Shown one piece after another: positions 1 to 21,057 of a stretch of 21,057 nt of DNA. The translations under genes were made by a program, and so were the position numbers. The notes under the pieces are model-generated. The model did no database searches. It saw only the letters and a list, made by a program, of their open reading frames with translations, and had not been told where the DNA came from. Numbering within the stretch: the stretch's first letter is position 1; every line of letters begins with the position of its first letter. The stretch is from Spirogloea muscicola (Eukaryota > Streptophyta > Zygnematophyceae > Spirogloeales > Spirogloeaceae). The stretch is taken from the NCBI GenBank assembly GCA_009602725.1, contig WELB01000206.1, positions 153,368 to 174,424 on the forward strand, read 5' to 3'.

Positions 1-3000
1 CCGCCGCCGCGAGCCTGGCTCGCCGAGGCGGCGGCAACGGCGGCGGCAGCGGCAGTGCCAAGACCGGCGCCGCGCCTTCGGGCCGCTGGCGGGCCGCCTT
101 CGCCTCGCTGCTCGCCAACCTGAAGAACTACCAAGAGCAGGTGCGCTGCCACCACTCTCTGGCGGCAGGCCGCCACAGTTGCAGGCGACCTCCCGTCATT
201 CACCGCCGCCGTCTTAGGACAGCGGCAGCGGCGTGAGGTGATGCCCCTGCACGGCGGCAATGCTTGCAAGCCGCAAGGCCCCAGCAAGGGCCACGGCAGT
301 CAGGGAGTGCCAGCGCTCGCGCCTTGGGCGAGGCTGCCTCATGGCCTGCCTCTTTGCCAAGGCATCCCTGCAGCAGTGCAGTGACGGTCGTACCTTCGCC
401 GTGTTGCAGGGGATCAAGATCCAGGAGAATGGCAAGGCCGTCCTGTACAGCTGTGGCCTCTGCAACGCCGTCATGTACAGGTGCCCGCAGCAGTCACCAT
501 GCGTCGCCGCCATGCTGCTGTTTCATTGACCGCTTCCTGAACGCAGGCTCTGCGCGTAAGGTCCGGCAAGCCGATCGATCTCTTAGGGGCTCGCAACCAG
601 TCGGCCAGCAGGAGCAGCTAGACTCCTCAGAGTTTCCCCTTGCTTTGCAGTTTCGTCGCCTAGCCACCCATGCGCCCTCCGCCTGCACTCAATTGACCTC
701 ACGTGTCTGCTCCCCCTTCCAGCGATCACACTCTTAGCGATCACATCAATGGCAAGAGGCATGCGCGGCAGTTCGTCGCCAAGGCTGCGCAGCTGCAAGG
801 GTCCGTCGAGGCTGCACTGCCCGACGATGGAAGGCAATCAGGTCGTTTGTTGTCTGGAAATGCACGCACCAGCTCATGTGCTATCAGTCTCTCGGAGTGA
901 GTCTGTGCTTGTAGCTTATCCAGCAGCTTCTCACAAGCACATCTCTTATGCTGGGGAGCAGAAGTCGCAGCTGCTGCAGAGGCTGGACGCTCATCGCAAA
1001 GCATACCCACAAATGACTTGCAGCCAAAAGTAATTTAGTCAGTCTCGAACAAAAAGGCAAGCTGCTCAGTCTCTGTTCAACATGGCTGCAGGCAGTGGAG
1101 AAGCCAACAGAGGCAGCCTCAGATCAAGGAGCACACCACCAAAGAGAGCAGCCGTTGTTCCCATCAACACAAATCTTGACAGAGGTGCAGAGGGGACTAT
1201 GGAGAATGGTGCTTCCTATGAGGGCAGGGCAGATTTGCAAGAAGGTAGGGAGGGGGAGGTCATGCCTGCAAAGGCAGCCAACAAGAAGCGGGGGAGGTTG
1301 AGCAGCACCAAAGCGGCTGCTGGTGCTCCGTCTCAGTCCCCTAAGGCCAAGAGGAAACCAAAAGCGGACGCACCTTTGCCTAAGGCGGAGCTGGTCAAAG
1401 CCCTCAGACCTGTGGCAAACGGCAAGGCATCCAAGATCAAACAGGGGGCAGTTGACGGGGGGGGGACTCCGGAAACAAGTGGCCACATCAGTTTCAGCCT
1501 TCCGTCAAACAGGCAGCCGGGGAGTTTTCCACACGAAGCTCTTCCTAACCTACAGATGGACCAGACAGGAGCAATGAGGAGCTCGACGCCTGGACAGGCT
1601 TGCATGCACTCAGGGGGGAAGCTCATGTTTGCTCTTATCACCTTCGACTTTGACGACACTGTGGGCAGAGGGGGTAATTGGCAGTCCAAGAGTACCTCAA
1701 ACTCCGTTGAGGATGGTACCACGGACATCACTGTCCTGTCACCACCTCTGGAACGCGTGACAGAGCTCGAAGGCGCAAGAACACTCCCGTGTACACCGGA
1801 TGCTGAGCCTCCAACTGCAAGTGGAGACGATGCAGATACTCGGATGCAGGAAGGTGTGCCTGCCAGACCGGTCCAGTCAGCACAGCCCAGTGCTGGCGAA
1901 GGGGACGCAGCCTTGGCGCCTGACCAGTTGACTGCTCGTGAACCAGGAGATGGCCTGCCAAAACAGCCAGCAGTGACAGGTGGTTGTGATACAATTGGCA
2001 GACCTGGCTCACAGGAGCTTGCGATTGAGCTTTTTTCGGAGAAGCGGGCTGCAAAAGTGGTGGCCCGCAGTGCTGGGAGGTCGAAGGCCATGCCGGCAGA
2101 ACGAAGTTGCTTCATCTGCCGACAACTGCTGGTGAAGGGAGCCGAAGTGGCGGCCCTTTGGAATACACGCACTGGCCGCATTGCTTGCAGCACCCGCAAT
2201 CACACTGGCGTGAGTACTTGAACCCTCCATTGCCCAACATAGAATTGCAAGCCCTAGATGAAGACAACTGTGCGCCAAAGCCTTTCTAGTATGCCAGCAT
2301 GTGGATGACGTGTTCAAAAAGATCTCAAATTGTTCTGCAGAAAGCCGACTTGGGGCACTCAGACATTGATAGGAGACACCTCTTGCAGACCCTCCTCTTA
2401 CAGCCACTATTTAATTTGACCAGCGCAATCTTGTCTTTTATACATCTCACAAGAATGGCTAATTGCTTAGTAGACCAATGTTCTTTGGATTTGCAGGTCT
2501 TCCATGTCTTCCACAGCCGATGCCTTGCTGACTGGGTGGCTCTTTGCCAAGCCAAGGCCTTCTCAGCCCTTTATCCTGATGCCAGGCCTCCACTAGAGAG
2601 TGCAGCTCGCGTGCAACATCCAGCAGGAGCAGAGAATTCTGGTGAACCGCCCGTGCCGCCGCTATCAGATGAGGTTGTTGAAGGAGATGGACCTGGTGCT
2701 CTTACAGAAGTTTCCGCCAGCACTTTCCATTCACGACAAGTGGACGGTCGATCATTGAATAGTGGTGCAGTGTTGGCCGACCTGCAACCTCTGGAAGGGC
2801 CAATATGCCCTGAGTGCCAGGGCACTGGTGTCCTGCCAGTTGCCGGTGGCTTGGAGAGGCCTCGATACCGACTTGCGCAGGTTGGCTATTCACACCACCT
2901 CAAGATATCTACTAGCAGACTCCCTCACTTTACAGACCTGCTCACATTGCTATCAAGAATGGGCACCACATGGAATGGAGCAGCTGCACAAGTGCACGAC

Positions 3001-3599
3001 TGCATGTACATGATGACTTCAAGTTCGACAGGATGTGCACCAATGTAGTGCAGAACTCGTTAGAGGCAACATCAAATCTCAGCAAGTGTTTGGTGGTGCA
3101 GATATACGACTGCATAATGGAGCTGGTTCAGACCCGGAAGACCTGGAGTGAGCAAGCAGATGGAATGGTTGCTGCTGCAAGTTCCACAACGACTCCCTGT
3201 ATCTCCTTGAGCAATGCCAAACAGCAGCAGGTCCTTGAATCGACTTTGCTCCTAGCTTCAAGACCTCCGCTCTGCCAAGTGTGCTGCCTGGGCACACTTC
3301 GAGTAGTTTGTAGAAAACAAAGGAACAATTGTGTGCAGGAAGTAGTAACATGAAACTGCAGCTCCAGGTGTGCACTCTACGTGATGTCGGCTGATCCAAC
3401 GCTGTGACTTTTCAAGCAGGTCATACAGGAAGTCCATAAGACGTTGGAGAAATTCAAAGCAGGGAGCCAGAGGCTCCTGACAGCTTTTCCAACCTCAGTG
3501 TGGGTTGCTAAACCACCGTTTTATTCATGCAGTATGAGCCTTAGTTTGTGGCAAATGTGGTGGACACATGCATGCTATGCACACTCCGTGGCTGTGTAA
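1..3599 (+). CDS. U1/matrin-type C2H2 zinc-finger protein with C-terminal Cys/His (RING-like) module; 5' partial
   Basis: Six exons fit in frame: 3-140 (runs off the left edge), 410-480, 723-841, 1092-2209, 2497-2880 and 3420-3599 (stop TAA), giving about 669 residues. Exons 2-3 form a CX2C-X12-HX5H finger (CGLC ... HINGKRH), the U1-C/matrin spacing typical of RNA-binding or splicing-related proteins. Exon 4 encodes a long polar, probably disordered region with Lys/Arg-rich stretches near 1285-1380 that could act as nuclear localisation signals. It ends in CFIC (from 2108), followed across the intron by HVFHSRCLADW and, from 2806, CPECQGTG. This resembles a degenerate RING-like zinc module that I recall from plant proteins of unknown function. 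Molecular function is unknown; a nuclear, nucleic-acid-associated role is inference. The last exon is supported mainly by matching phase and open frame, so its 3' end is the least certain part. Confidence 0.75.
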
Positions 3600-3646
3600 A
3601 AGACTGTCAATAATAATCACACACACAGAATTTACTAACAACAATC

Positions 3647-3651
3647 TGTAA
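3647..3651 (+). other. TGTAA poly(A) signal, zinc-finger gene
   Basis: TGTAA, the chlorophyte-type polyadenylation motif, lies about 50 bp after the stop codon at 3597-3599. Five bases are easily found by chance, so this is a position-based call. Confidence 0.35.
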
Positions 3652-4055
3652 TATGACCGCAGGATCTGTGGAACCAGTGTCAAGGACCACTCAAAGGTCC
3701 AGGTTTAGTGGCCTGCAATGTATCCTGCTGACATTGCGAGGACTTCGGTGCACCTCATCACTGCTGGATCAGCCCAAGGGCACTGTAGAGTAGATGGATC
3801 CATCTTCCAGGTGGGCACTGTACAATGTACAATGTAGCATATGTGGTAGGTTGCTTGTCGCAAGCTTCTATGAAATGACGCTGATCCATGGGCGGAATAA
3901 TCCTTCTTGACATGCATCATCTGTCCAGGCTATCAGCGTCACAGTAAGACACAATGTAGCACAGACTCATGTGGTCTGAGACTAGACAAGCAGGAAAAGC
4001 CACTCCGTTGGCTGCGGAATGAGCTTGGTAGCGCTAAATCGCAGTGGTTGACCTA

Positions 4056-4060
4056 TTACA
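4056..4060 (-). other. TGTAA poly(A) signal, serine hydrolase gene
   Basis: TTACA on the + strand reads TGTAA on the - strand, about 210 bp after the hydrolase stop. The spacing is similar to that seen for the Rpn5 gene. The call rests on position and motif only. Confidence 0.35.
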
Positions 4061-4267
4061 TTCATCAGAATTGTTGCAGCAGGATTGAGCAGAGCTTTGC
4101 AAGCAAGTCTACTGAATGGTGCTGCCAGAATAATCAACAAGTCCAGATGAGTGATGTGTATAAAAGAGTGGAGTGCCTCAACAACAGTAGTCATATAGGC
4201 TGAGTGCCTGCATCTGCATGCTAAGCAAAGTGCTTCATTCTCACTCAACCAAAAGTCATCGATGTAA

Positions 4268-7200
4268 TTATTGGTTCAGGTAATACTTGTACAGTTGCTT
4301 CACTAAGGACTGCAGCCCAATCCTAGTTGGGGCCACAACTTCAGCACATGCCGAGCTTATGTGTACCTGGCTAAATTGAGAAGGTTGGTCTCTCATAGCT
4401 GGCTTCGCACATTCACGAGCATCAAGGTCTACATTTGACTTCGGATTGCAATTAGAGCCAGACACTTCTTCTTCTTCTTCTTCTTCTGTCAAGGAATGAG
4501 CAAGCCAAGTTTCTTTTCTATCTCCGACTGCGGCAATCAGAGAGTGTTGCAGCAGATCTTGTGTCTGCTCTGCAATGCACATTGTCAAAGTGCTGGCAAG
4601 TGCGACTGTTAGGTTGCTTGCAGAAGCAAGCTCAGCATCGATCATGCCCGTCGGATGACTGCAGCTGCTGGCAGCTGTAAACAGCAGAGTTGCTTTGCTT
4701 CCCTCTCCCAAGGTGCAAGCTTGCCCATCTGCACAAGCCTCTTGGTCAGAATGCGCTCCTTGCTGACGGGCCAGATTGATCTGGGACGGAGTGTCGGCAA
4801 GCTCATCTGCCACCCAAGCTGCCTTTGCCTGAGACTCTGTGCACTCAAAAGCCCCAGCCCCCGATGTCCCTGTCTCGTGACATTTATGATGTGAGTCGCT
4901 CTTTGTTCTGCTCGATGTCAGGCCAACCGTGCCACAGCTCACCACTGATGATCTGCGCTTGGCGACTCCTTGCAACGAGCTTTCAGCGGGGCGTTGCATC
5001 AGCTCTGGCAGTTGTTGGCTTTCTTCAACAAGCTCTGAGCAGGGCTGAATCTCCCAGTTGGAGGTCAGTGGCTTGTTGACGGTATACCTGTGTGGGACCT
5101 GGTGAGAGTGAACAGCATATGGGCTGCTCAATTGCACTTGCTGTTGCATTGCCAGATGCTACAAAGCGTCCTTGTACTTGAGCAAGTATGAGGCCGCTGG
5201 AACTATGAGTTTGAGACCACTGAAGCACAGCTGAGGACCACAGAACAACATAGCTAAGTGAAGACCTGGTGTCCGAGCTGGAAATACCTGCCAGATAGCT
5301 CGAGCTATGACCTCTCCCAGATCGGCTGCCAGGCGGAGGGCTGTGTCATACTCGTACTTATCATCGTCGAGCACGCCATTGGCATTGGTGTAAATTGACA
5401 TAGACATGAAGAAGGACCTCCCTGTCTCAACATCAAAGACGTACCTGCCAACAACACCAGCAACAAGGTGGCCAGCTGAATAGCAGAAGGAGACCCGTCA
5501 GGAAGATCTGACAGAGCATTCGTTTTGATCTGCGGCACCAGCAGAGCGAGTGTACTATGAATTGCGTTATTGGGAATATGTATTCTCACGAGTTATCCAC
5601 GGTGAAGCCATAGGCCTGACCGACCTTGTTGTATACCCTAAGCGCCGCCTTAGGCCGTACTTTGCAAAGGCCCGGCAGGAAGAACTGCCCCATGATCAGC
5701 ACAACACAACTAAGTCATGGCCCCTTCTAGTGTGCCCTGCACAGTATACTCTCCTCTTTCCACTTGTACTAGTGCATGTAGCCAGTCCAAAGTCACTCAG
5801 GGGACAGAGTTGCAGCAGCACTGACCTTACAGTAGTCATCAGGAAATTCCTTGGCTGAATAACGAGGACTATGTGACTGAGAGGGGTACTGCAGCATTGC
5901 ATCCTGAAGGAGTTGTCTTTGGCCACTGCTCAACAGCAAACCAGGGCTTCCAGGCTGTAATGGGAAAAACAGTCACTCCGAGGGGTATTGACTTAGCAGC
6001 CCGATGCCATTCACAAGTTGCTGTTAGGGCCCAAGTCAGGTTGTGAGCTTGAAAGGGACATAGTACACCCACAGTCCATGGGAGATGAGGGACGTGGCTG
6101 ACCAGCCAACGGAGCATCTTGGAGTAGGAGCACCCACATGGATGTCGCTTCTCATGAGCTTCACCAGTAGGTCCTGGATGTCCACCAGCGAAGCTACATT
6201 CTTCACTGAAAAGTCCATGGGCTTCTTCACCTGAACATGACTGACGCAGCTACTTGAGTCCGAGGAATTAAGTATCGGATGCGCTGCTGGCACATGCAGG
6301 GCAACCTCATTCTCCCTGGCCAGAGAGGCTGTATAATCAAAGTGAAAGGTGAGATAATGAGAAACAGGAGAACTGGGGAGGATAATGAAAGACAGTACCA
6401 GCTGGCTTCCATCTTTGACATACGCCTTCCCAACCAGAGTGCCCAGAAGGTGCCTGTTGGGGGGAAGTTCAGCCAAGTTGTGCTTGGGCGGGATGCTGAA
6501 GGCCTGCTGCTCCACACTAATCTCCAGCGGCTCGCAGAAATGGTTCTCCTCTGCAGTCAGTGGCACAGATAGCCTGTGACGCAGCCTCACGCTGCTCAAG
6601 CCAGCATCCCACCTGCGCGCCACCATAGAAACTACCCTTCCTGACTAAGGAGTGCTAGCAGTGCGGATGACCTCGCCCGGCCTCCTTCATCACGAAGACA
6701 GTGAGAGCGCCAGAAGTCATGCACGCACAGGGACAGAAGGGCGTACATTGCTTGGTTGAGTCGCTTTTGTCCGACCAAGGCGTAGAGCCGGTTGTAAGCC
6801 TGATTGTCAGACACCTGCACAGAGAGTCCAACTCAGCTGGTGGCCTCCATCTCTCTTACGCTGGTGACACTGTCAGGGCTACAAGCTACAGCTGCAGTCG
6901 CGTCATGCCCAGCTTACTCGCGCAGCTTAAAGAGCAACACCCGTGACACTCACGAACAACGAGTGGACACCGCGGCCAATAAGTCTGATCAGACTCTCAA
7001 AGAAGCCAATGCTGGACCTTGCTCTGCAAGACAGGCGCCATTGCCATTGCCCAGAAAAGCCGACCAGGCTGGACTCATTGGCAGGTGGAGAGCCTTGCCA
7101 AGAACAGCTTGCGGATCTCGTGGGCCACTGTGATCGCTCCTCCGTTCAGGTTGGACGGATCCTTGTCTTGGGCGTCCGGGTAGCTGCTAAACAGTGGCAG

Positions 7201-7922
7201 CACCGTGAGGGGCGTAGTTGGGCTCAACTCAACACCTGGTGAGCCCACACCGCTCAGAGTCAAGTGGTGCTATGTAGGATATGGAAGGAGTGGGTGGAGG
7301 ATGGGGAAGGTTGCCCTACGCCTGCCCATCCGAGCAGAAGCTGTCCCTGCTGCAGGCTGCTGATCCGAAGGCAGGCCAGCTGATCACCAGCAGGAGCGTA
7401 CCCAGGCTGGTTTGCAAGCGCGACAGCTCCTGGAGGGCCGCGATGGCAGCACAGATCTTGATGGAGCTGGAGCAAGCCCAAGCAGAGCCACGAAGATGGC
7501 AACGCCAGCGTTAGGTGCCGCTGCAGCCACTCGGCAAGGGCGGCGAGGCTTGCAGGCGGCACAGCGACGCAGGGGTCTGGAGTCCATCACGCCGACGCGG
7601 CTGCTGCAGGAGGAGGCCCAGGCGAGGGCCCGCCGAGGACCTGGCGGGGTAGAAGTACTCCTCGTCGGCCCGGAAGCCGTGGCGCAGCAGCTCGGGCTCG
7701 CCGCCGCGCCCTGCCTCGCGCACCTCCGACACCAGCACCTGAGCGGTGCGCTGGCTGGTCAGTGGTCAGCGAGCTGCGGCGACGGCCAGCAGGCCGGGGC
7801 AGGGAGGGAGGCGCGCGTGCCTGGAAGCGCAGCTCGGGCGCGCGCTCCATGGCGGCGCCGAACTGCCGCGGGTGCGCCGCCAGCACGGCGCGCAGGAAGG
7901 CGGAGTCCCGCGCCGCCGCCAT
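4268..7922 (-). CDS. SxxK serine hydrolase, class A beta-lactamase fold (beta-lactamase2 type), with C-terminal extension
   Basis: Eleven exons (- strand): 7922-7821, 7738-7641, 7466-7402, 7235-7099, 6814-6747, 6612-6399, 6230-6138, 5954-5826, 5702-5590, 5444-5288, 5098-4268; 668 residues. The penicillin-recognising triad is present: S67-S-I-K70 (SxxK, split by intron 2), S136-D-N138, and K328-V-G330 in place of KTG. Motifs such as YFYPAS, SDNQAYNRLY, RHRLSV, PMDFS and YNKVGQAYGF match a bacterial, largely Bacteroidetes, serine-hydrolase family as I remember it. Those proteins end near residue 392; the last exon adds 276 polar residues with an E7 run and no domain I recognise. Introns 1 and 4 use GC donors. 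Junction 8 (5825-5703) lacks a canonical in-frame acceptor. Start M at 7922 was chosen; an in-frame ATG at 7982 would add 20 residues. No signal peptide is evident. Activity could be an esterase, DD-peptidase or beta-lactamase; the substrate is unknown. Confidence 0.9.
4465..4487 (-). repeat. (GAA)n microsatellite inside the hydrolase last exon
   Basis: About 7.5 perfect CTT/TTC units on the + strand. Read on the - strand they encode seven consecutive glutamates in the C-terminal extension. The repeat is in frame, so unit changes would alter length without a frameshift. Confidence 0.85.
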
Positions 7923-8158
7923 GGCCGCGCCTTGCCCCGCAGAAGCGAAGCACGGCAAGCCTCTGCTATTGTCCGTTCGCATGACTTATGAACGGCCGCT
8001 GAATGGCTCCCGGCTCTCAAAGCCATTCGCCTTCACGTTGGAAGAGCTGTCGCCCTCACGCCGGGGCCTCCNGCCGCAGCTCCGCCGGCATCGCGCCTGA
8101 GAGCTGGCAAGGTGATCGATGCCCCACCCCTCTTCAGTAGGCTGCGCACACGAGAGCC
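7923..8158. promoter_or_regulatory. Shared divergent promoter region, hydrolase / M14 carboxypeptidase
   Basis: About 236 bp separate the chosen start codons of the two head-to-head genes (about 176 bp if the hydrolase starts at 7982). The region is GC-rich and contains an unresolved base at 8072. I see no clear TATA box. A shared promoter is inferred from layout only. Confidence 0.5.
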
Positions 8159-11100
8159 ATGGAAAGGTGGCACCGTGCCGCTTGCCGCTCTGAGTCTCCT
8201 CGCGCCGAGGCCTTTGATGGCTCACACTGTGGCCGCTCGAGTAGCTCACGACCGCGTGGCGGGGACGGACAGGTACGCAGGCCCCCCGCCCTGGCTCAGC
8301 CCGACTTCGAGCTGTACCACCACAGGTCAGTCGACCCTTCCTTCGTGCGCGAAGTTCGTCCACTATGCTGCATTGTGCCACTTGCACTGCACTCCCAGGA
8401 GCGGCAATGTGCAGCAATGTCTGCCAAGACTGCTGCAGTATGCTACATATGTAGCAGGACTGGATTAGTGTGTCCCTTTGCAAGGGCACGTGATGCTCAT
8501 CGTTCTCATAATCGCGACTCTGTCTCCTGTCTCGCCTCTGTTCACCTCTGCTTGCTTGCAGTGATGCCTTGTTTGCTGAGGTCGATGCCTTTGCAGCACG
8601 TCATGCAGGCCTTGTCCAAGTGTGTATACCTTCTTACAGCGACAGCAACCTCTCTGTACTCGGTCGTCAATCATTTTGTGCCTTACGAAGTGTATTTGCA
8701 ATGGCAAGGGTAGGAGCCCATTGCTCCGCATCTGGATGATGTGCCACTTTGAACCGCAAACCTTCTCTGGCTCGTTTCAGGTAGAGAAGCGGAGCCGGCA
8801 TGCAGGCAACTACAGCACAAGCTTGACAATTGTTACCATTGGCCAACAGGAGCAGACTTTCGATCATCGCATCCGCGTCTTGCTTGTAAGACACTGCACT
8901 GCATTTTGCTGGTTGCCCAGCAGATGTTGTTGCCTATGTTTTCCACAGCCCTGGTAGCTCATGCAAGCATTCCAGGCCTCCCAGGGGACTCCTTATATTG
9001 TGTTGCTTTCCAGCATGCTCTGCCGGTATTTGGTTGCCTCCAAGAAGTTGGACTTACCACAACCTTACAAATTTCACATGACTTCTCTGGGCTTCTGCCA
9101 AGTCAGGAGTGTGGGCAGCATGCCAGGGAGCCAATCACTTCGGAGTTGGCGCTGAGCTTGATAGCAGTGCTAGTGGGAGAGTACCTTGTTCCAGGATTGT
9201 CACAGAAAGCTCTCCAGCGCCTCCTTTCCAACCTGCTCATTAAGGTAGGGGGCTCAGCATAAGGCAGCACAGTCAATCAAACTAGGGGTGGTGGTTCATA
9301 CAATCTCATCCTTTGATTGCATTCGCAAATTAGTCTGCAGCCCTTGTCAGGGCCAGGCATCCATCTCAGATTTGCCCCCGCCACCTCTTGATGACTGCTG
9401 CCATGGTATGCAGATTATCCCTTTGGAGAATGTGAGTGGACGTAAGCTCTTCGAAGCCGGGGCATTTTGTGAGAGGAAAAATGGTGAATGACTACAAGTG
9501 CCGCCTCTCTTGTTTCGAAGTCATGCAAGTCAGTATCTCGGAAGTTTGTGCATACGAGGGGCAAAGAGCTATTTTGGCTGAGCGAGGCCGTACAAACTGC
9601 TCTTCAAGCACTATGCCTGGTTGCAGGGCGTGGGGTTGACCTCAACCGGAACTGGGGTCTCGATTGGGGCAAAAAGGAAAAGGTCTGCCCTCGCTGCTGA
9701 CATTATTTGTGTGGATATGCATGATGGCGAGTTGTGATCAGGCTTGCTGTCAGCAAGGGTAGGCTCGCCCACTTGGGCTGAAGTGAAGCATTCATTGCAG
9801 TAGCTGGGCTGAATGTTGATCATGACAGGACTATGACCCTAAGGAAGAGTTTCCTGGCACAGGGCCCTTCAGCGAGCCAGAGTCGCAGCTCCTTCGGCAG
9901 CTTGCTGTTGACTTCAGGCCCCATTTGTGGGTGAATGTTCATTCTGGTTCGGAGGTGAGGTGCCAGACTCAACTTGTCAAAGCAGCATAGAAACCAAAAA
10001 GTGGAAAAGGGACAGTAACTGCTGCTTTGAAGCACAAAGCTTCATGACCCTTGCTCAGAGTCCTGATCCTGTAGACATATTGACAAATTTCTCATGACAA
10101 TCCTGCACAGGCTCTGTTCATCCCCTATGACCACCGAAGCAGCGTGCCTCAGGATGGATCAGCAGAGCCAGTTGTGGAGCTATTAAGTAAGCTTAATGCG
10201 TGGCACTGCTCAAACGGCTGTGCTGTTGGCTCTGGAGGAGCATATGTAGGGTGAGCGCCTCTCCTTTGGTTGCTCTTTCACCTACATGCAGTACATGTGT
10301 AGTTTGATGAAGGTGCGTCGCAGTAATTAGCTACTTTACTATCTAGCAATTAGCTTCTTTACTATCTAGCAAGGGCCAGTGTCAAACAGCCATGGATTGT
10401 TTGCGAGAGGCTGATCATGTTGCCATGTCGTGCAGGTACCTGGCACATGGCACGGCAGTTGATCACCTCTTTGAGATTTTAGGTGTCCCAATTGCTGTGA
10501 CATTGGAGGTACACTTACACTAGAGGACCATAAGATGGCCTTTGCATCTGCGAGGACAAACGTCACGGTGCTGTGCTTATTAAACACTCTGCTCAATGTG
10601 CCAGAACTTCATCATTGCATGTGGCAGATATACGGAGATGAGAGTGCCCATGTCGATGATTGTTTTCGAGCATTCAACCCCGTCAATACCACAGACTTTT
10701 CGGTGAGCTGTCACGAGTACATCTCCCGCCTCAGCTTGTAATTACCTCCACTGTTTTTGCTGCTTTGGCCAGTTTGAATCTGTACAGGTTGCGAGTGTTG
10801 CTGTTCTACTTGGAGATGATGATATTGGAGCATTTGGTCCTCTGATTAGAGGATACAGACCTGATAATTGTCAAAGCATGAGGGTGCAGAGAGTGTTGAA
10901 GAAGTGGACAGCCCTTTTCGTCTCACTCCTCAACAGCCTGCCGCAGACACTTGAGGCTATACCACAGCGCCTCAAGCACCAGTATGCCTGGTCTAGAGCC
11001 CCAGCTAGTGATGTTTGGTTGCTACGTATGTCCTGGCCACCAGACCCATATCAGGAGGTGCAGGTGCAGACTCTCAGATTGTGCTTTGCGGTCTTACTGG

Positions 11101-11195
11101 GTCTGTGCGCAGGCCTTCTCCTTCTCCATTGTTTGCGTCGCACAGCACGGCTGTGGGTCATTAGGAGGAGACACCTTGTCCAGGGCCTCATTTAG
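8159..11195 (+). CDS. Plant-type M14 zinc metallocarboxypeptidase with C-terminal transmembrane anchor
   Basis: Eleven exons: 8159-8325, 8562-8619, 8781-8885, 9107-9244, 9414-9483, 9627-9682, 9829-9954, 10111-10250, 10436-10508, 10628-10702, 10890-11195; 437 residues, all junctions in phase. The catalytic set of family M14 is complete: zinc ligands H115 and E118 (GQHARE) and H236 (NVHSG), substrate-binding N186/R187 (DLNRNW), Y288, and catalytic E311 (TLEIYGD). It hydrolyses C-terminal residues from peptides. From memory the sequence closely tracks the Arabidopsis zinc carboxypeptidase At5g42320 (for example CERKNGRGVDLNRNWG and FNPVN). Residues 398-418 form a hydrophobic helix followed by an Arg-rich tail, consistent with a type I membrane protein whose catalytic domain lies in the lumen or outside. 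The predicted N-terminus has no signal peptide, so the first exon or start may be wrong. The gene is divergent from the SxxK hydrolase. Confidence 0.94.
10325..10370 (+). repeat. 23-bp tandem duplication in a carboxypeptidase intron
   Basis: Two head-to-tail 23-bp units (10325-10347 and 10348-10370) differ at one position. They lie in the intron between exons 8 and 9, 65 bp before the acceptor. Probably a recent slippage duplication without coding effect. Confidence 0.9.
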
Positions 11196-11972
11196 CCGAA
11201 CATCACTAGCAAATGTTTAGTTTCTAAAGGCCACCCACTGAGAGGCAAGCAACAACCAAGGAGGCACTTAAAGAGGACAAGTATCTGAAATTTAAGTCCA
11301 CTGCTCAGCTTAGACGTCACACCATGAGCCTGCTTGCATCTCTTCACCAATCTGTAGACTGACATCCAGCAGAGCAAATTTGATGGTGAGTATTCAGGTC
11401 GGTCTTCATGTCTCCAATGCTGCTCCCTTATGTACTGCATGATTCTGTCAGTGTTGGTATTAAATGTCAGTGTTTCACACTAGGTCGCTTTTCTTCCACA
11501 CGAGGGCCTCAGCATTGCACAGGCGCAGGCATAGGCCTGCTGGAGGTATGGTTGCAGCTAAAAGCTTCTGGTAAGAAGACCACCCAGCCTTCCACAGCCT
11601 TCAGAGTCCTGTTGAACTTTGGCAGCACGACATATCACAATGTCAAGGAGCAAAACAAGAGGTGCTGGCTTCGCATCAAATACACATCCCCTCAATCGCC
11701 TTCTTGTGTGGTCATGCTCTTACCAACTTCCTTGATCAATTTGTCACGTGCACAGCCACTGCCCCTGGGGACGAGCTACCACAACTATTGATATCACATG
11801 CCAGAAAAGGCTCAGTCTACAAGAGCTTTCAATGTCAGCACCTTGCTCTACACGGGCACCAATTAGTTGAAATTGGTGATTTACTAACTAAACGATCAGT
11901 AAATAGGGCGCCACCACTGGAGACAGATGACTTTCTGACAAAACATCAGGAGAGACCATCTAAAGTTCACAA
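11196..11972. other. Convergent 3' intergenic region, M14 gene / PDZ gene
   Basis: Between the stop codons of two converging genes. The open frames here, such as 11408-11791 on the + strand, have no recognisable motif and no coding look. I assign the stretch to the two 3' UTRs and spacer. Confidence 0.55.
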
Positions 11973-12963
11973 CTATGCTTGATACCTAGCACTTCCATTC
12001 TCGCCCATAGGTCTGCACTTCTGCACCTCGATTGTTACCTGGCAACATATGACTTCCGGTTAGCAAACGCTCTTGTAAGGTGATACATGTGTATATATTG
12101 GTGGCATTTGTGCTGAGCCTCAACATTGTGTAAGCCAACAAGAACCATGTGTGCTCAAGGTATGGTGGCTATCAAGACAAGCACAATATCACTGTGAAAA
12201 TAGATCTGAAGATTAGCCTGGAGTAACACTGCAGCTGACCTTTATATGAGCTGGATGTGTGCCAATTGCCGCCATGACCTGCATGAAGTAAGTGCTGATT
12301 GAGTAAGAGCAGCATTAAGAGCCGCTAAAATCGACATATGCACAACTAGATGGAGGTGCAGCCTGAGCATGACCATTGTTTCAGTACAAGATGGACTAAC
12401 CGTGTCAAAGCGCTCGCCCTTCACATTAAGGCGCACAATTTGCATGCCCTTTCGAACTCTTACGCCACCATATGACTCCTCCCTGCTGTAGACAATAGCG
12501 CTGGTAGCAATGAGCTCATCACCAACGTCCACTAGTCCAGACTTGTCGGCATTGCCTTCGGGCACCACCTCTGCCACAAATATCCCACCAGACCTGTCCT
12601 CCTCCAGCACCAAGCCTGCAGATTGCATCAGGAATGGTCGACAACACCCTCATGCATGCAGCCTCTCTACATGTGGTCAAGCCCACCTCAGTCTGGCTCT
12701 TGATCTATGTCAGCTCTTGTTCTTTGTCAGCAACTGCAAACAACGTGGAGTAGGAGGCCAGTTGGGCACACCGAGTGGCTTGCCGAGCTCGACTTTGATG
12801 CGGCTGCACCCTGGTGGTGGAGCATCTCTCTGCTTGGTGTCGCCTGATAGCTCAGCAGGCCCAAGCTGAGCTGCAGCAATGCAGCGCTTTGATTGGCCCT
12901 TTGCGCACTTTCCAAGGCCGAGAGGTGCAGCCCTCTTGAAGATGCTGAGCTCCGGCAAAGAGG
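11973..12963 (-). CDS. Small PDZ-domain protein, probably chloroplast-targeted; 5' end unresolved
   Basis: Exons (- strand): 12963 (uncertain) to 12772, 12615-12401, 12278-12240, 12038-11973 (stop TAG); the last three junctions agree in phase. The PDZ-like core begins with VELGKPLGLVLEED and continues with GIFVAEVVPEGNADKSG, VGDELIATSA and GMQIVRLNVKGERFDT, ending VMAAIGTHP and VTIEVQKC. It carries the PLG peptide-binding loop and the GNADKSG helix turn typical of plastid PDZ proteins such as ENH1-like proteins. No rubredoxin or protease domain follows; the protein stops 21 residues into the last exon. The likely role is as a scaffold or adaptor, partner unknown. The first exon shown could start at 12963 or at a nearer acceptor. 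I could not find an ATG in phase; a transit-peptide exon may lie in 12990-13340, where a G12 run and an n spoil the frame. Confidence 0.83.
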
Positions 12964-12989
12964 CTGCAGAATGGAACGGCGCCGACGGT

Positions 12990-13344
12990 CATCACCAGTG
13001 TGTAACTGCGCGACGGTGGCGGCAGCAGCCCTCTCATGCAGAAAAGAGAAGCAGGGTTGATGGCAGCAGCTCCTCTTGCAGCTTTGACGCCCTGCCCAGC
13101 TCGAGCAGTCACGCCTGGAGGACGCAAGGGGCAGCGCTGCGCAGCACGGTGGTCGGGCCTCCCGCGCCCGTCGCAAGGCGGCCGGGGGGGGGGGGCAGCC
13201 CGGGAGCGAAGGCAAGGGGCGGCAGAGGGCTTGCCTGCGAGGCGGCGGGGCGCGGCGCCGGCGCGGGGAGCAGCTGGCGGGCGGCGANGCGCCGGCGTCC
13301 CTCGGCTGCGCTGAATCACCAATCGCTGACGCGGGGGTACTCAA
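12990..13344 (-). other. Possible transit-peptide exon of the PDZ gene in a GC-rich island
   Basis: The - strand frame from 13344 is rich in Ala, Arg, Ser and Pro, like a chloroplast transit peptide. It has a phase-1 donor (GTGACT) near 13112 that would join in phase to the acceptor at 12963. It lacks an ATG, and the stretch contains 12 Gs in a row (13184-13195) and an unresolved base at 13288, so an assembly error may hide the true start. Suggestive only. Confidence 0.3.
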
Positions 13345-13703: not shown

Positions 13704-14039
13704 CTTCTCAGGAGAACAAGTTGCCAGCTGGCTGACTTCCTCTCTACCTCCAGGCCCACCGCCACTGACACAAACAGCACCCAGAGTGTGCGCTTTGCTT
13801 GCATGCAAGTCCACCTTGTCCCTACATAGCCGCTGTCCTATTTGGTTGCCTCTGAAGTGACAAGCCCAACCGGGCGGGTGGGCAGTAGGCCACGGAGCTG
13901 GCCCCGTGGTATCCCCTGGTATCCCCCGGCTTCAAGCACGCTCACAATGCCAGCGACCGTAAATCACCACATCTGCACCCCTTGCAGCTTCTGGCAATCA
14001 TACTTGTCACCCACTCTCTCCTGTGTCATGTGCATCCCT

Positions 14040-14044
14040 TTACA
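14040..14044 (-). other. TGTAA poly(A) signal, Rpn5 gene
   Basis: TTACA on the + strand lies about 205 bp beyond the Rpn5 stop. Position and motif only. Confidence 0.35.
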
Positions 14045-14248
14045 TGCACAGCTGCCTCTCTAACTTCTGCCTGTGCCCAACACACTGCAGATCATGCAAT
14101 ATGATCCTGCTCCTTGACATTCTGTAGCAGTGGAAAGAATCAACAGCCAAGAGAGGCTGGTTGCAGTGAGCTCCTCAAACAATGAGCCTTTGCTTGCACC
14201 GACACACAGAGGTTGCTGGCTGGCACCACTGCCAATTGGAAAGCATGC

Positions 14249-17200
14249 TCAATTCACCTTCAAGTTGACCTTGTGCACCATCGTCTCCTTGTGAATCTGA
14301 TGGCAGCTCTTCTCCACCAAGTCCAGAAGCTTCTCTATGCTTATGGACCAGGTATTCAGGACCTCATTGCTGTCCTTGCGGCCCTGCTTCATGAGAAATT
14401 GACTGAGGTAAATGACACAGGAGGAGGACAGGCAAAATAGGACATAAACCATGCAGTCTCATTAGGATCTCCTGAAAAGAGCTACTTGCTTCAATCAAAT
14501 ATGGGACTTACCTGGAAAGAAACAACACTAGCAGGTCGATCGACCTTCGCATACAATGCTCTAGAGACGACCATTTCCGAGAGATGCTTTTCAGTGTCCT
14601 GCTCGACAGAGGACACATGATGCATACAGTTGAGGTATCAGTATCAGCCTGGTGCTCAGCCTGGTGGAACGGCCATTTACAACATGGGAACAAGTACGTG
14701 CCCCTTCAACAGTTGCCCTCAAACTTACAGCCATGGGAAGATCCAAAAGCTCCGAGAGTCGCTTCAAGTGGATTCTGGTATAGTACTTAGATATCACCAG
14801 AATGTTCTGAAGACCACATTAGAAAATGTCAGGATAACCTGATAAAACTAAATATAGGCAAAACACGATCCCCTGCCTCACAGGCATGTCCTGCATCCAC
14901 AATCAACATACTGTGGTGGGATGACTGCCTAATGTGAGCTTACATGCTCTATGACTCTTTGACGGAGAGTTTCCAGGGCTTTCCCACCAGCCTCGCCTCC
15001 AAAGAGTTCGTTCTGCTCCCCAAGCTCATAGCCATATTCGGTGGCAAGATGTGGCCAATTGACAACTTCCATGGTGATGAAAAGCTTCAGCAGGGACCTG
15101 ACATACAGTCAGACAATTGTGCTTGATACCAAGTCAGAAGCCCCATCACTTGGAAATGATTGCCTATCCACAGTACATGCTCCATTCTTTGCTTACAGTG
15201 GTCACCAAACTAGCAGAATTTGCAGGCTGCTAACCTGAACTTGGGAAGCTCTCGGAGTTTCTTATCCTCATACGTGCTATGCAGCAGGCTTGATTGCATG
15301 CTGTCATGAGGTGCAAGTGTAAGGTACCAGCATATTCGCTTCAAGACCTGTTTCACATTTGGATGCCAGCCTACATCAAAAGGGTGACTGCATTGAATAT
15401 CTACCAAATAACAACGGGCATAAAGGGTTGCACGGGCAATGGGCAAGCAATGGAGCACATCAAAGATGAGCTAAGCATTGACAGCCAAGTGGAAAGGCAC
15501 GTACAGATTGCCATTTGGTGGGGTCATCCTGAATTGACGGACTATCATATATTGATTGATAGCACCGACAGATCTCCAAGTAGTCACTGTTGTTGGAATT
15601 ATATCTGTGAAGTTTCTGTAAAGAGTGAGGACTTGTCGCTTGATGCACACCTTGATGCAGATGTTACTTCTTGATAGCCTTTGAGACCATCGTCCTTGGC
15701 AAACATAGACGGAGGCAGACTCACCCCTAGCTAGAAGCATGGCCTTTGCTACAGCAGTTGATGCCTTCAAAAAGTGTGACCAGCCTGACATACCTGATCA
15801 TCAGTTCGTAATATATCTGCTTAAGTTCTGGAAGCGTGGGTATATCTGGAGCAGCAGCCTCCACAACAGTGGCATCCATTGCCCGACCCTTCTTCTTCTC
15901 CTTTTTTGGTTCCTCGGTGAAAACACGAGGGTTGATCTTCTTCGCCAATATTTGCGCCCTCATGTAGTCTTTATGGTCCAAGCAGAGTCGAACCTGACAA
16001 CAATCTGAGGCAAGTGAGTGCCTACACCTACGTCCTTCAACTCTGGTGCCTATGTTGCTGCTCTGCACAGCTAAAAGCATGTGAAAAGCCTGCTCCTGTG
16101 GAGAACAGACATAGGCGAGCTCAAAAGTAAGGAGACTCCTGGCTTCATTTCTTCTACTACCTGCTTATGCTTAAATGAGTAACTTGACATATCTGAGCAC
16201 GAAAATACCTGCTCCAGTATGAATGCTATCTTCTCTGTTTTGGCCATAGCACCAAAGGTTTCTACCTGCAGCCAACAGCTGACTGCATCAGCATACGATT
16301 GATTGAGATAGAATCACAACCTGCATAGTCACTGCAAACGATTCCTGTGTGCCTTGCTTTGTGCATCAGAATTGGACAAATGATCAAACAGATGCCCATG
16401 CTGTCATCAGGGCGCATGTACAACAACTTACTTACCGCCACTTCCTGCATAATTTCTGCAGCTTCTTTTACTTCTCCTTGATCCTCTTTGATCTTTGCCA
16501 GCTTCTTTGTCAATCGAGCTCTCTCAATCTCTACATATATCTGCACAGTATAGTTTTGAATCCAAAAAGATGAGCACATATGCATCAGCAGACAGCAGCA
16601 CAATTCTTCAGTGGATCCTCTACCCTCTGCCAAATTCTAAGACCCCTGATCCTTTTGTCCAAAAGCGAGACTTGAACAGCCCTTTCTCGTTTGAAACTGC
16701 CTAATAGCAGTCTTTCACTTTGTGGCACCAAAGGTGCCTGGCCCAGGCAAATCTCTTGATGCGGAAAGATGAGCAAACTGGGGGCACAACTTCCAGTTGA
16801 CATTCAGGCGAGGGAGACCTTGTTCAGTCTTTGCGCATGCTACCTGCATATCATATTCTGACAAACAAATCTACCTTGCCCGCAGTAACGTTGTTCAAGG
16901 TCTTGATGAGCTCCATGCGGGTATCCAAGTCAGGTGTTGCATCAACATAGGTCATGGCCTCCTTTACCATTGCAGTTATTGCCTGGATCATGGACAATGT
17001 AACGAAGTTCAGGGTTCAGCAGAGAAGACAAGATCATCTATCTCTGAGCAACTGGGAGTTTATTAACGACGTCTACAGGCATACTAAGAGGTGAAGCTAA
17101 ATTAGTGTCTAGCATCTATACTGTGGCTATGCTGAACTCGAAGATGTACAGATATGAGCTACAAGCTTGCCCAAAGGAAGCCTGTAATAATTTGCAATTG

Positions 17201-18945: not shown

Positions 18946-21057
18946 TCAGTAACCCCTGCTAAGCAGTCGCAGGTCAGAGAGACTATGCTCCTGGAAGTAT
19001 GTCCCCTGGCCAGAGCCAGAGGCAGCAGCGAGGGCTCGGCCGGCACGCAGGTGCAGCGCGCGGGCCATTGACCTCTGCAGCGAGACGGCCAGGCGCATGC
19101 GGTACACCTGGGCGAGCGACCCAGCTGCAGGGAAGTCCACCGACACCCCATGGAAGCGGCGGGCGACGGCGTGACGGGCAAGCTGGTGGAGCAGGTCGAG
19201 CCACCGAGCACCCAACGCCCCGTGTGTGTCGATGGCCAGCGGGAAGAACTCGTCAGCTGGCGGATGGTCTGCGTACTTGAGTTCTTTGGCACGAGCGGCG
19301 CAGGCGACCGCATACCCAGGCTTGGTTGCACACTGGGCTGGGTGGGATCGGTCGAATGCGTCGGTAGTCACCACGTCCAGGAGGAGACGTGGCCCGCCGA
19401 CCTGTGGGGTGGCCACCAGGTCCACACGACGGGCGTGGACACCGTCGGCTCTGGCCTGGATCGGCATGATCCCAGAGTGCTCCGCTGCCACAGAGAAGCC
19501 AGCCTCCACCAGGATGCCGTGCATTGCTTCCCGGAGGCGGTCATGGGCCGCTGTCCGCTCTCCGCCGTGCGAGCAGCGCAGAACGTGAGCGGCCAGCTCC
19601 CCCTGCTCGGCCCCGCGCTCACCACACTCACATTGACGCACGCCCTGGAGGCATGGCGGCGGCAGGCCGAGGAGCCTGTGGACGGCACTCCAGAATACCT
19701 CGTCCGGGAGGGCGAGGGCGTCGTTGAGTGGGAGGGCCTGGAGCCACGCCGCTGCCCCCGGGGAAGCGGCCGAGTGGAGTCTCGCGCGCCCGCGCAGGTC
19801 GGCCTCGGGGAGCTGCAGCACGGTGGTGGTGTAGGCGGCCTTGTCGACGACGGCCGCGAAGCGCGCTTGGACCTGCAGGTCAGCGGTGTGCGCGAGGTGC
19901 GCAAAGGAGACCGCCTGGCCGGCCAGGTCCGGGTGCGCCGCGATCAGCTCCTGGTGGGCGGTGCGAAGCGACTCCTGGAACGGCAGCGCGCCCGTGTCGA
20001 CCTCCACCACCGCCTGCTCCAGTGCACGCCGGCCGTGGACGATGAAGCGCTGGGCCACGGAGGCGGCAGTCTGCGCCCAGCTGCCGAGGTATGCAGCCCT
20101 GCAAGAGCGGACGAGCGGGCGCAGGCCGAGACCCCCGTGGCTGAGGGGTAGCGCCGCCTGGTGGATAGCGGCTGGCGACTGTAGGAAGCCCGGGTGGTGG
20201 ACCAGGGCCGCCAAACTCGCCACCATGCCGGCGTCGAAGGCCTTGTACACCGCCAACGCCTCTGGGGACGGCGGGGTGGCCCGCGTCAAGTACTGGGGCC
20301 GCTGCCCGATAGCCTTGGTCAACATGGCCAATGACAGCTGCATATCGTCCAGCTCGGGAAGCCGGGCCGCAGGCAGAAGGTGCTCCGCAAGGCGGGCTCG
20401 CAGCTGCCCCTCCACGAAGGCCGGCGTGCCGATGGGAACTCCCAGGAGGGTGAAGCCGTCTGCCGGAGTCCGGCAGCCCGGGGGCAGCGCCAGGGTGGGT
20501 AGGATCTCGCCAGGGGACCAAGCCGCGCACTTCGCCGGCCGGATGGTCAGGCCGAGGGGGGCCAGCTGCTGCGTGAAAGTGGCGAAGGCCGCCGCCACGT
20601 CTTCCGGAGGGCCGACTATGGTGGTGTCATCCGCGAAGGTGGGGAGAAGGACTCCTGGGTGGGCCGCTGCGGTAGCCTGCAGAGCCCGGTTGTGCGCGAG
20701 CGCAAAGAAGAAGCCGGCGAGGGGGTCCCCTTGCCGCGTGCCCGAGCGGGACTGCAGGACCTCCACCTGATCACCCCCTGTCCACCAGAGGAGGTCGCTG
20801 GGCTGACCGTACCCCAAGCGGAAAAAGGGGACCAGGGAGGGGAAGGAGGCCCGGAGCTCCTCCGCAATGCAGGCGCGCTCCACGGTGTTGAAGGCGTTTG
20901 CCACGTCGACGGCAAGCACCAGCCAGCTCGGGTGCTGGTCCAAGGTTGCACGGACCCCGTGGACGACGGCCTCACCCCCACTCCGCAGCCCCGCGCCGTA
21001 CTGGTGTGGCGCCATGTGCACCTGCGCCGGCCCCGCATGCTGCTGCCAGAGTACGCG
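18946..21057 (-). CDS. LINE reverse transcriptase with C-terminal restriction-like endonuclease; 5' partial
   Basis: 704 codons are open from the right edge to the stop, with no introns and high GC. RT motifs in order: block A LAVDVANAFNTV (catalytic Asp near 20907), block B SGTRQGDPLAGFFFALA, block C FADD at 20637-20626 in place of the usual YADD. A thumb region follows. Next come a Cys/His motif (CECG, then HVLRCSHGG) and a PD-(D/E)xK-like nuclease (RADGVHARRVD, then LLLDVVTTD, then a conserved Lys region ATKPGY). This order, RT then zinc motif then nuclease, is that of restriction-like-endonuclease LINEs. The protein nicks target DNA and primes reverse transcription from the nick. The N-terminal RT fingers and any APE endonuclease or DNA-binding fingers lie outside the window. 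Confidence 0.94.
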   Translation of the reverse strand, partial: RVLWQQHAGPAQVHMAPHQYGAGLRSGGEAVVHGVRATLDQHPSWLVLAVDVANAFNTVERACIAEELRASFPSLVPFFRLGYGQPSDLLWWTGGDQVEVLQSRSGTRQGDPLAGFFFALAHNRALQATAAAHPGVLLPTFADDTTIVGPPEDVAAAFATFTQQLAPLGLTIRPAKCAAWSPGEILPTLALPPGCRTPADGFTLLGVPIGTPAFVEGQLRARLAEHLLPAARLPELDDMQLSLAMLTKAIGQRPQYLTRATPPSPEALAVYKAFDAGMVASLAALVHHPGFLQSPAAIHQAALPLSHGGLGLRPLVRSCRAAYLGSWAQTAASVAQRFIVHGRRALEQAVVEVDTGALPFQESLRTAHQELIAAHPDLAGQAVSFAHLAHTADLQVQARFAAVVDKAAYTTTVLQLPEADLRGRARLHSAASPGAAAWLQALPLNDALALPDEVFWSAVHRLLGLPPPCLQGVRQCECGERGAEQGELAAHVLRCSHGGERTAAHDRLREAMHGILVEAGFSVAAEHSGIMPIQARADGVHARRVDLVATPQVGGPRLLLDVVTTDAFDRSHPAQCATKPGYAVACAARAKELKYADHPPADEFFPLAIDTHGALGARWLDLLHQLARHAVARRFHGVSVDFPAAGSLAQVYRMRLAVSLQRSMARALHLRAGRALAAASGSGQGTYFQEHSLSDLRLLSRGY

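Follow-up and report, generated by a model that had tools for sequence, protein, structure and literature searches.

Penicillin-recognising acyl-serine enzymes are, to our knowledge, few in eukaryotes, and a gene for an SxxK serine hydrolase of bacterial type in the genome of the alga Spirogloea muscicola raises the question of where it came from and what its product might do in such a cell. The gene lies in a window of 21,057 nucleotides (contig WELB01000206.1, positions 153,368 to 174,424; the window denotes this whole stretch), to which all coordinates given below refer.

Gene structure, second copy and selection

The gene occupies the minus strand from position 7922 to 4268, where 11 exons are spliced into an open frame of 1,989 nucleotides, encoding 662 amino acids followed by a stop codon. 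Eight of the ten introns are bounded by GT-AG, and introns 1 and 4 by GC-AG. Exon 1 (7821..7922) opens with the start codon at 7922 and encodes the conserved N-terminal helix without a long extension ahead of it. Exon 2 (7641..7738) ends inside the codon of the catalytic serine, after its second base, and exon 3 (7402..7466) supplies the remainder of the SxxK motif (S67-S-I-K70), the phase-2 intron 2 cutting the Ser67 codon AGC after AG. Exon 4 (7099..7235), which precedes a GC-AG intron, is followed by exon 5 (6747..6814) with the S136-D-N138 motif, by exon 6 (6399..6612) with the H169-R170-L171 block, whose Leu171 is aligned with the class A deacylation glutamate, and by exon 7 (6138..6230) with the PMDF/KN block. 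Exon 8 (5826..5954) is given by the exon model and the second copy described below, while exon 9 (5590..5684) contains K322-V-G324 and the AYGF block, exon 10 (5288..5444) is the final exon of the catalytic domain, up to residue 386, and exon 11 (4268..5098) encodes a tail without a Pfam match, whose frame is open in both copies. The 11 exons and the intron-split SxxK motif claimed in an earlier, sequence-only reading of this DNA are borne out by the splicing to an uninterrupted frame and by the divided serine codon; with its motifs and second copy, the exon model is confirmed far beyond chance.

A second genomic copy of the gene was found on contig C222 of the assembly (153 Mb in 471 contigs). 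Window positions 1-13228 and 13719-17030, the latter being the end of the compared piece, align with C222 in long blocks of 87-92% identity, so that C222 represents another haplotype or a segmental duplication. The C222 copy contains the same ten introns with every splice-site dinucleotide kept. The ATG at 7922 is present there as well, and the in-frame upstream ATG (7982) is absent; the 5' flanks of the two copies have diverged by 23%, and 8 gaps occur over their 278 bp.

Identity between the copies reaches 89.1-98.5% in exons 1-10 and 88.1% in exon 11, and the introns show 68-90% with many length changes. The 57 substitutions in exons 1-10 comprise 38 synonymous and 19 non-synonymous changes (dN 0.022, dS 0.151, dN/dS 0.145), and no indel occurs in these 1,158 bp against 26 in 1,666 bp of introns. 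In exon 11, dN/dS amounts to 0.99 and a single 6-base in-frame indel is present; when its 93 substitutions were placed at random, only 2.5% of 5,000 trials gave a frame without a new stop. It follows from these results that exons 1-10, the catalytic part, are under purifying selection, whereas the exon-11 tail is probably translated yet nearly unconstrained.

Copy numbers in the genome are uneven, with three for the PBP, three for the MurF-like gene, four for the RuBisCO small subunit (exon-split matches on four contigs) and two for the SxxK gene, which suggests polyploidy or mixed haplotypes in the assembly. The RuBisCO small-subunit matches are in keeping with an alga of the green lineage. 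Exons matching PF13354 were also encountered on contigs C128, C85 and C15 (L008-L010) and, in part, on C238 (L011), where they form a second exon-split gene beside exons that look SET-domain-like by eye. Their candidacy as paralogues was rejected, tblastn with the window protein giving only chance-level matches (E >=0.4), and they seem to represent another gene of class A-like type.

Several other features are found in the window. The SxxK gene is arranged head-to-head with the exons of an M14 zinc carboxypeptidase at about 8567-11195 on the plus strand; these exons carry the motifs HAREP, GVDLNRNW, NVHSGSE and TLEIYGD, their joined peptides match PF00246 (E 2.7e-26), and a hydrophobic stretch near the C-terminus, judged by eye, suggests a membrane anchor. 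On the minus strand are an exon of a PSMD12-type proteasome subunit (15730-16164; PF22241, E 2.1e-7), a LINE-like reverse transcriptase frame that stays open up to the window end (18949-21057; PF00078, E 9.3e-13) and a weak PDZ match (12245-12649; 21.7 bits against the Pfam cut-off of 23.2).

Family membership and bacterial relatives

The algal protein matches Pfam PF13354 (Beta-lactamase2) with E 4.2e-13 and 49.6 bits, the cut-off being 22, and scores 18.9 bits with the NCBIfam class A beta-lactamase model, under the cut-off of 200; a PDB sequence search with the algal protein alone gave no match at E 1. The motifs S67xxK70, S136DN138 and K322VG324 are intact in both algal copies. A scan of prokaryotic species genomes returned at least 584 relatives among 592 candidate stretches, from which the best 80 were kept, favouring close matches; of the 63 positions that at least 85% of these best 80 of 584 have in common, the algal protein retains 55. 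The earlier assignment to SxxK serine hydrolases with intact SxxK, SDN and KVG motifs is thereby upheld.

The top matches among the best 80 of 584 belong to Planctomycetota MAGs, two Acidobacteriota MAGs and one unassigned bacterium, binning errors being possible in the labels of bacterial MAGs. The best single-genome match among those listed (E 1.6e-97, 47%) is full-length and intronless, and the five nearest sampled bacterial proteins (L019, L014, L016, L017 and L012) show 44-46% identity over 370-383 aligned residues. By tblastn, identity to the alga is 35-47% for the non-algal members of its clade, described below, and 30-39% for Bacteroidota, among the matches listed. Searches by phylum, for which genomes were drawn evenly from the larger groups with those already known to match included, gave no E-value better than that of L014 and one partial match of 48% over 169 residues.

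A first tree, of 82 rows, has both algal copies inside a 21-row Planctomycetota-dominated clade with support of 100/100. A second tree of 59 rows (2 algal, 48 of the 80 relatives and 9 additional genome loci) places them in a 30-row clade, again with 100/100, as its first branch with weak support (88/52); left out of it were L098 (the same gene as L022), L103 (partial), L092, L093, L104, L106 and L107 (duplicates) and L108 (Bacteroidota). A long, fully supported branch parts the alga from all 56 sampled Bacteroidota rows. A constraint test with the alga on the Bacteroidota side gave no rejection, because the alga stands at the base of the planctomycete end in an unrooted tree, a split already contained in the best tree (88/52). 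The bacterial source proposed at the outset holds among the bacteria sampled, and the Bacteroidetes-like donor proposed with it is not supported, given the 100/100 grouping with the Planctomycetota-dominated clade in both trees. A bacterial source of planctomycete-type affinity is thus well supported within this sampling, and the alga may be either sister to the planctomycete clade or inside it (88/52, in trees that hold bacterial and algal rows only).

Vertical inheritance of a gene long present in eukaryotes or green plants, its bacterial look being due to bacteria-only sampling, is considered unlikely. Ten introns common to two copies at a synonymous distance of 0.15 would suit such a history, as would the first-branching place of the alga within its clade in the second tree, but the relatives are patchy among bacteria (matches in 12/392 genomes of the phylum of L014, 3/297 of that of L012 and 36/198 of that of L030), the alga joins one bacterial clade at 100/100, and the open-access literature yielded nothing on PF13354 together with algae, which is weak evidence. 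Among the open-access papers listed for beta-lactamases, green algae, PBPs and gene transfer, none describes the SxxK gene. Plasmid and phage collections gave no tblastn match at E 1e-3, and IMG/VR scans gave no relative; two IMG/VR loci picked by motif pattern were rejected by eye as unrelated phage-like frames.

Active site, location and gene context

A structure predicted with AlphaFold2 for the close bacterial relative L014, from an alignment of 66 of the 80 retained relatives, has a pLDDT of 96.2 and a pTM of 0.93. Foldseek and VIA-align place this model with the class A beta-lactamases (Z 24.9, rmsd 3.0, 251/391 residues aligned to a class A enzyme). An alignment to class A beta-lactamases, proposed when the gene was first noticed, finds their fold in the prediction for this relative, a model of L014 and not of the algal protein, with the deacylation glutamate not conserved. 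The position aligned with Glu166, the general base in the class A omega loop, is occupied by Leu in 77 and by Phe in 3 of the best 80 of 584 relatives, and by Leu171 in the alga. It was placed by HMMER alignment to 5gs8, with moderate confidence in that stretch, and the HRL block falls on the omega-loop glutamate. In any register over residues 150-217, acidic residues (Glu or Asp) occupy a given column in at most 48 of the best 80 of 584 relatives. Another base may take the place of the Glu166 equivalent, such as algal Glu178 or Glu179, which lie slightly downstream of the aligned position. Judged from these alignments, the class A deacylation glutamate appears not to be conserved in the family, and efficient beta-lactam destruction is unlikely for that reason.

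Where the algal enzyme would act is suggested by its N-terminus. By a simple hydropathy rule, which is crude and was applied to uncurated starts, 73 of 79 relatives (from the best 80 of 584, one without a PASxxK string being left out) have a hydrophobic stretch resembling a leader ahead of the domain; the first 45 algal residues fall below this rule. The algal enzyme is probably cytosolic, since the bacterial leader is missing, and the lack of a long extension ahead of the mature-domain helix argues for the same location.

Candidate genes of peptidoglycan synthesis are present in the host genome. Contigs C107, C56 and C3 (L111, L112) carry an exon-split PF00912 domain and, after it, PF00905, the arrangement of a bifunctional class A PBP. 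MurF-like exons on C39, C8 and C42 span most of the TIGR01143 model; their identity as MurF is only probable, because the best single exon scores 93 bits against a TIGR01143 cut-off of 288.6. Contigs C149 and C435 carry a further, weaker set of Mur-ligase matches. These genes suggest that the genome encodes at least part of a peptidoglycan pathway, and some prasinophytes have kept the whole pathway (PMC4815162). The earlier premise that algae of this kind do not make peptidoglycan is weakened by the PBP and probable MurF exons and, with the prasinophyte case, is no safe basis for argument.

A D,D-peptidase at work in the plastid, where it would trim peptidoglycan made by the alga itself, could be envisaged in such a host, and is a doubtful reading, held somewhat less likely than vertical descent. 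With the PBP exons (C107, C56, C3) and MurF-like exons (C39, C8, C42), a D-Ala-D-Ala-type substrate may exist; a peptidase would be compatible with fold and motifs, and the Ala/Arg-rich first algal residues could act as a weak targeting signal. It has to contend, however, with an exon 1 that aligns with the mature bacterial enzyme start with few residues ahead, with poor conservation between copies of the sequence 5' of the start codon, and with a search for D-Ala-D-Ala ligase in the alga that gave sub-cut-off matches only (E 0.3).

Gene order in the bacterial relatives offers hints of a substrate. In 15 of 26 clade relatives with usable flank, the hydrolase gene has a LysA-type (diaminopimelate-decarboxylase-type) gene upstream on the same strand, directly adjoining it in 12 and at 1.1-1.4 kb in L033, L052 and L097; the count covers 28 loci minus L022 and L025, whose upstream flanks are almost absent. 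All four LysA-type neighbours scanned score above the TIGR01048 cut-off. The link of LysA to peptidoglycan peptides is indirect, because LysA is a general lysine-synthesis gene and 11 of the 26 flanked relatives have no LysA neighbour. In the planctomycetes L013, L015, L017, L018 and L020, a BioF-like enzyme is found further upstream, giving the order BioF-like, LysA, SxxK hydrolase; one such enzyme scanned from the clade scores below the bioF cut-off. The open-access literature searched contained nothing linking diaminopimelate decarboxylase with a PF13354-type hydrolase. Compared with the L013 LysA, the alga shows weak single-exon matches (39-40%), which give no sign that an algal lysA arrived with the SxxK gene.

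On the Bacteroidota side, 12 of 61 loci (some of the 61 with incomplete flank) have a BioF-like gene as their immediate upstream neighbour. Among 55 of 56 same-strand neighbours scanned (one beside L032 and 57 on the opposite strand were left out), aminotransferase-fold enzymes are commonest (21/55) and PF01427, the D-Ala-D-Ala dipeptidase family, appears in 2/55. NlpC/P60 is directly downstream in L046 and L090, so that only a few copies on this side adjoin peptidoglycan-peptide enzymes (NlpC/P60, PF01427). A DUF1611 neighbour suspected in L063 was rejected, reading by eye as fructose-bisphosphate-aldolase-like. The gene context hints at diaminopimelate- or D-Ala-containing substrates.

The possibility that the enzyme is a detoxifying esterase or beta-lactamase, for which the bacterial gene context would be irrelevant, agrees with the predicted class A fold of the L014 relative and its SxxK-SDN-KxG triad. 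It is regarded as just as doubtful as the plastid D,D-peptidase, given that the deacylation glutamate is not conserved in the best 80 of 584 relatives and that the natural protein LRA-5, which is class A-like but has no Glu166, shows negligible activity on beta-lactams (PMC12777564). Bacterial contamination or a decaying pseudogene, for which nothing was found, is ruled out by the ten introns with their splice sites, the PSMD12-type, M14 and reverse-transcriptase exons in the window and a second copy under purifying selection (dN/dS 0.145), in agreement with the first description of the locus as a nuclear gene.

Proposed role and comparison with known systems

The explanation that we consider probable is that of a nuclear acyl-serine hydrolase gene with a class A fold, derived by old transfer from a Planctomycetota-branch bacterium, its product probably cytosolic and possibly acting on peptidoglycan-derived peptides. 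The donor would have been a bacterium on the Planctomycetota-dominated branch of the uncharacterised PF13354 family, and ten introns and the variable C-terminal tail would have been gained after the transfer. In the predicted reaction, a small substrate, amide or ester, would acylate Ser67, with Lys70 activating this serine and Ser136 and Lys322 assisting, and the acyl-enzyme would then be hydrolysed or transferred. Function is assigned at the level of a predicted acyl-serine hydrolase only; D-amino-acid or diaminopimelate peptides from peptidoglycan would be the most likely, if weakly supported, substrate class. A bolder version, which we hold to be rather improbable, would make the protein a eukaryotic cytosolic muropeptide hydrolase by which the alga recycles or senses D-amino-acid or diaminopimelate peptides, whether these stem from peptidoglycan of its own plastids or from bacteria. 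Such an enzyme would combine the class A fold with the absence of the deacylation glutamate, and would come from a planctomycete-like bacterium in which its gene is often LysA-linked.

The intron-rich algal copy, maintained by selection, of an uncharacterised bacterial branch, set in a host genome with class A PBP and probable MurF genes, provides a testable case of a bacterial enzyme reused in a eukaryotic cell. The analysis also brings to light a recurring bacterial gene pair of diaminopimelate decarboxylase and SxxK hydrolase.

The closest known counterparts are the proteins of the planctomycete PF13354 branch (L019, L014, L016, L017 and L012), which resemble the algal protein over their full length and share its motifs and blocks; the bacterial genes are intronless and mostly encode a hydrophobic leader, whereas the algal gene is interrupted by ten introns, and its product lacks the leader and bears an additional tail. 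With class A beta-lactamases of CTX-M type, the family has in common the predicted fold of the L014 model and SxxK, SDN and KxG, but it is about 130 residues longer and is without a conserved deacylation glutamate. LRA-5 (PDB 8EO5) and Streptomyces cacaoi BlaB (PDB 2wuq) are class A-fold proteins among the structural matches to the L014 model, and LRA-5 likewise lacks Glu166 (PMC12777564). Both are bacterial proteins of about 270-320 residues and match the family profile weakly (E 0.023 and 0.082). PBPs of green-lineage plastids are cross-linking enzymes of a peptidoglycan pathway, of PF00905 type. Those in moss and Micromonas are penicillin-recognising acyl-serine enzymes of photosynthetic eukaryotes (PMC4815162), and the window gene differs from them in belonging to another family with another source.
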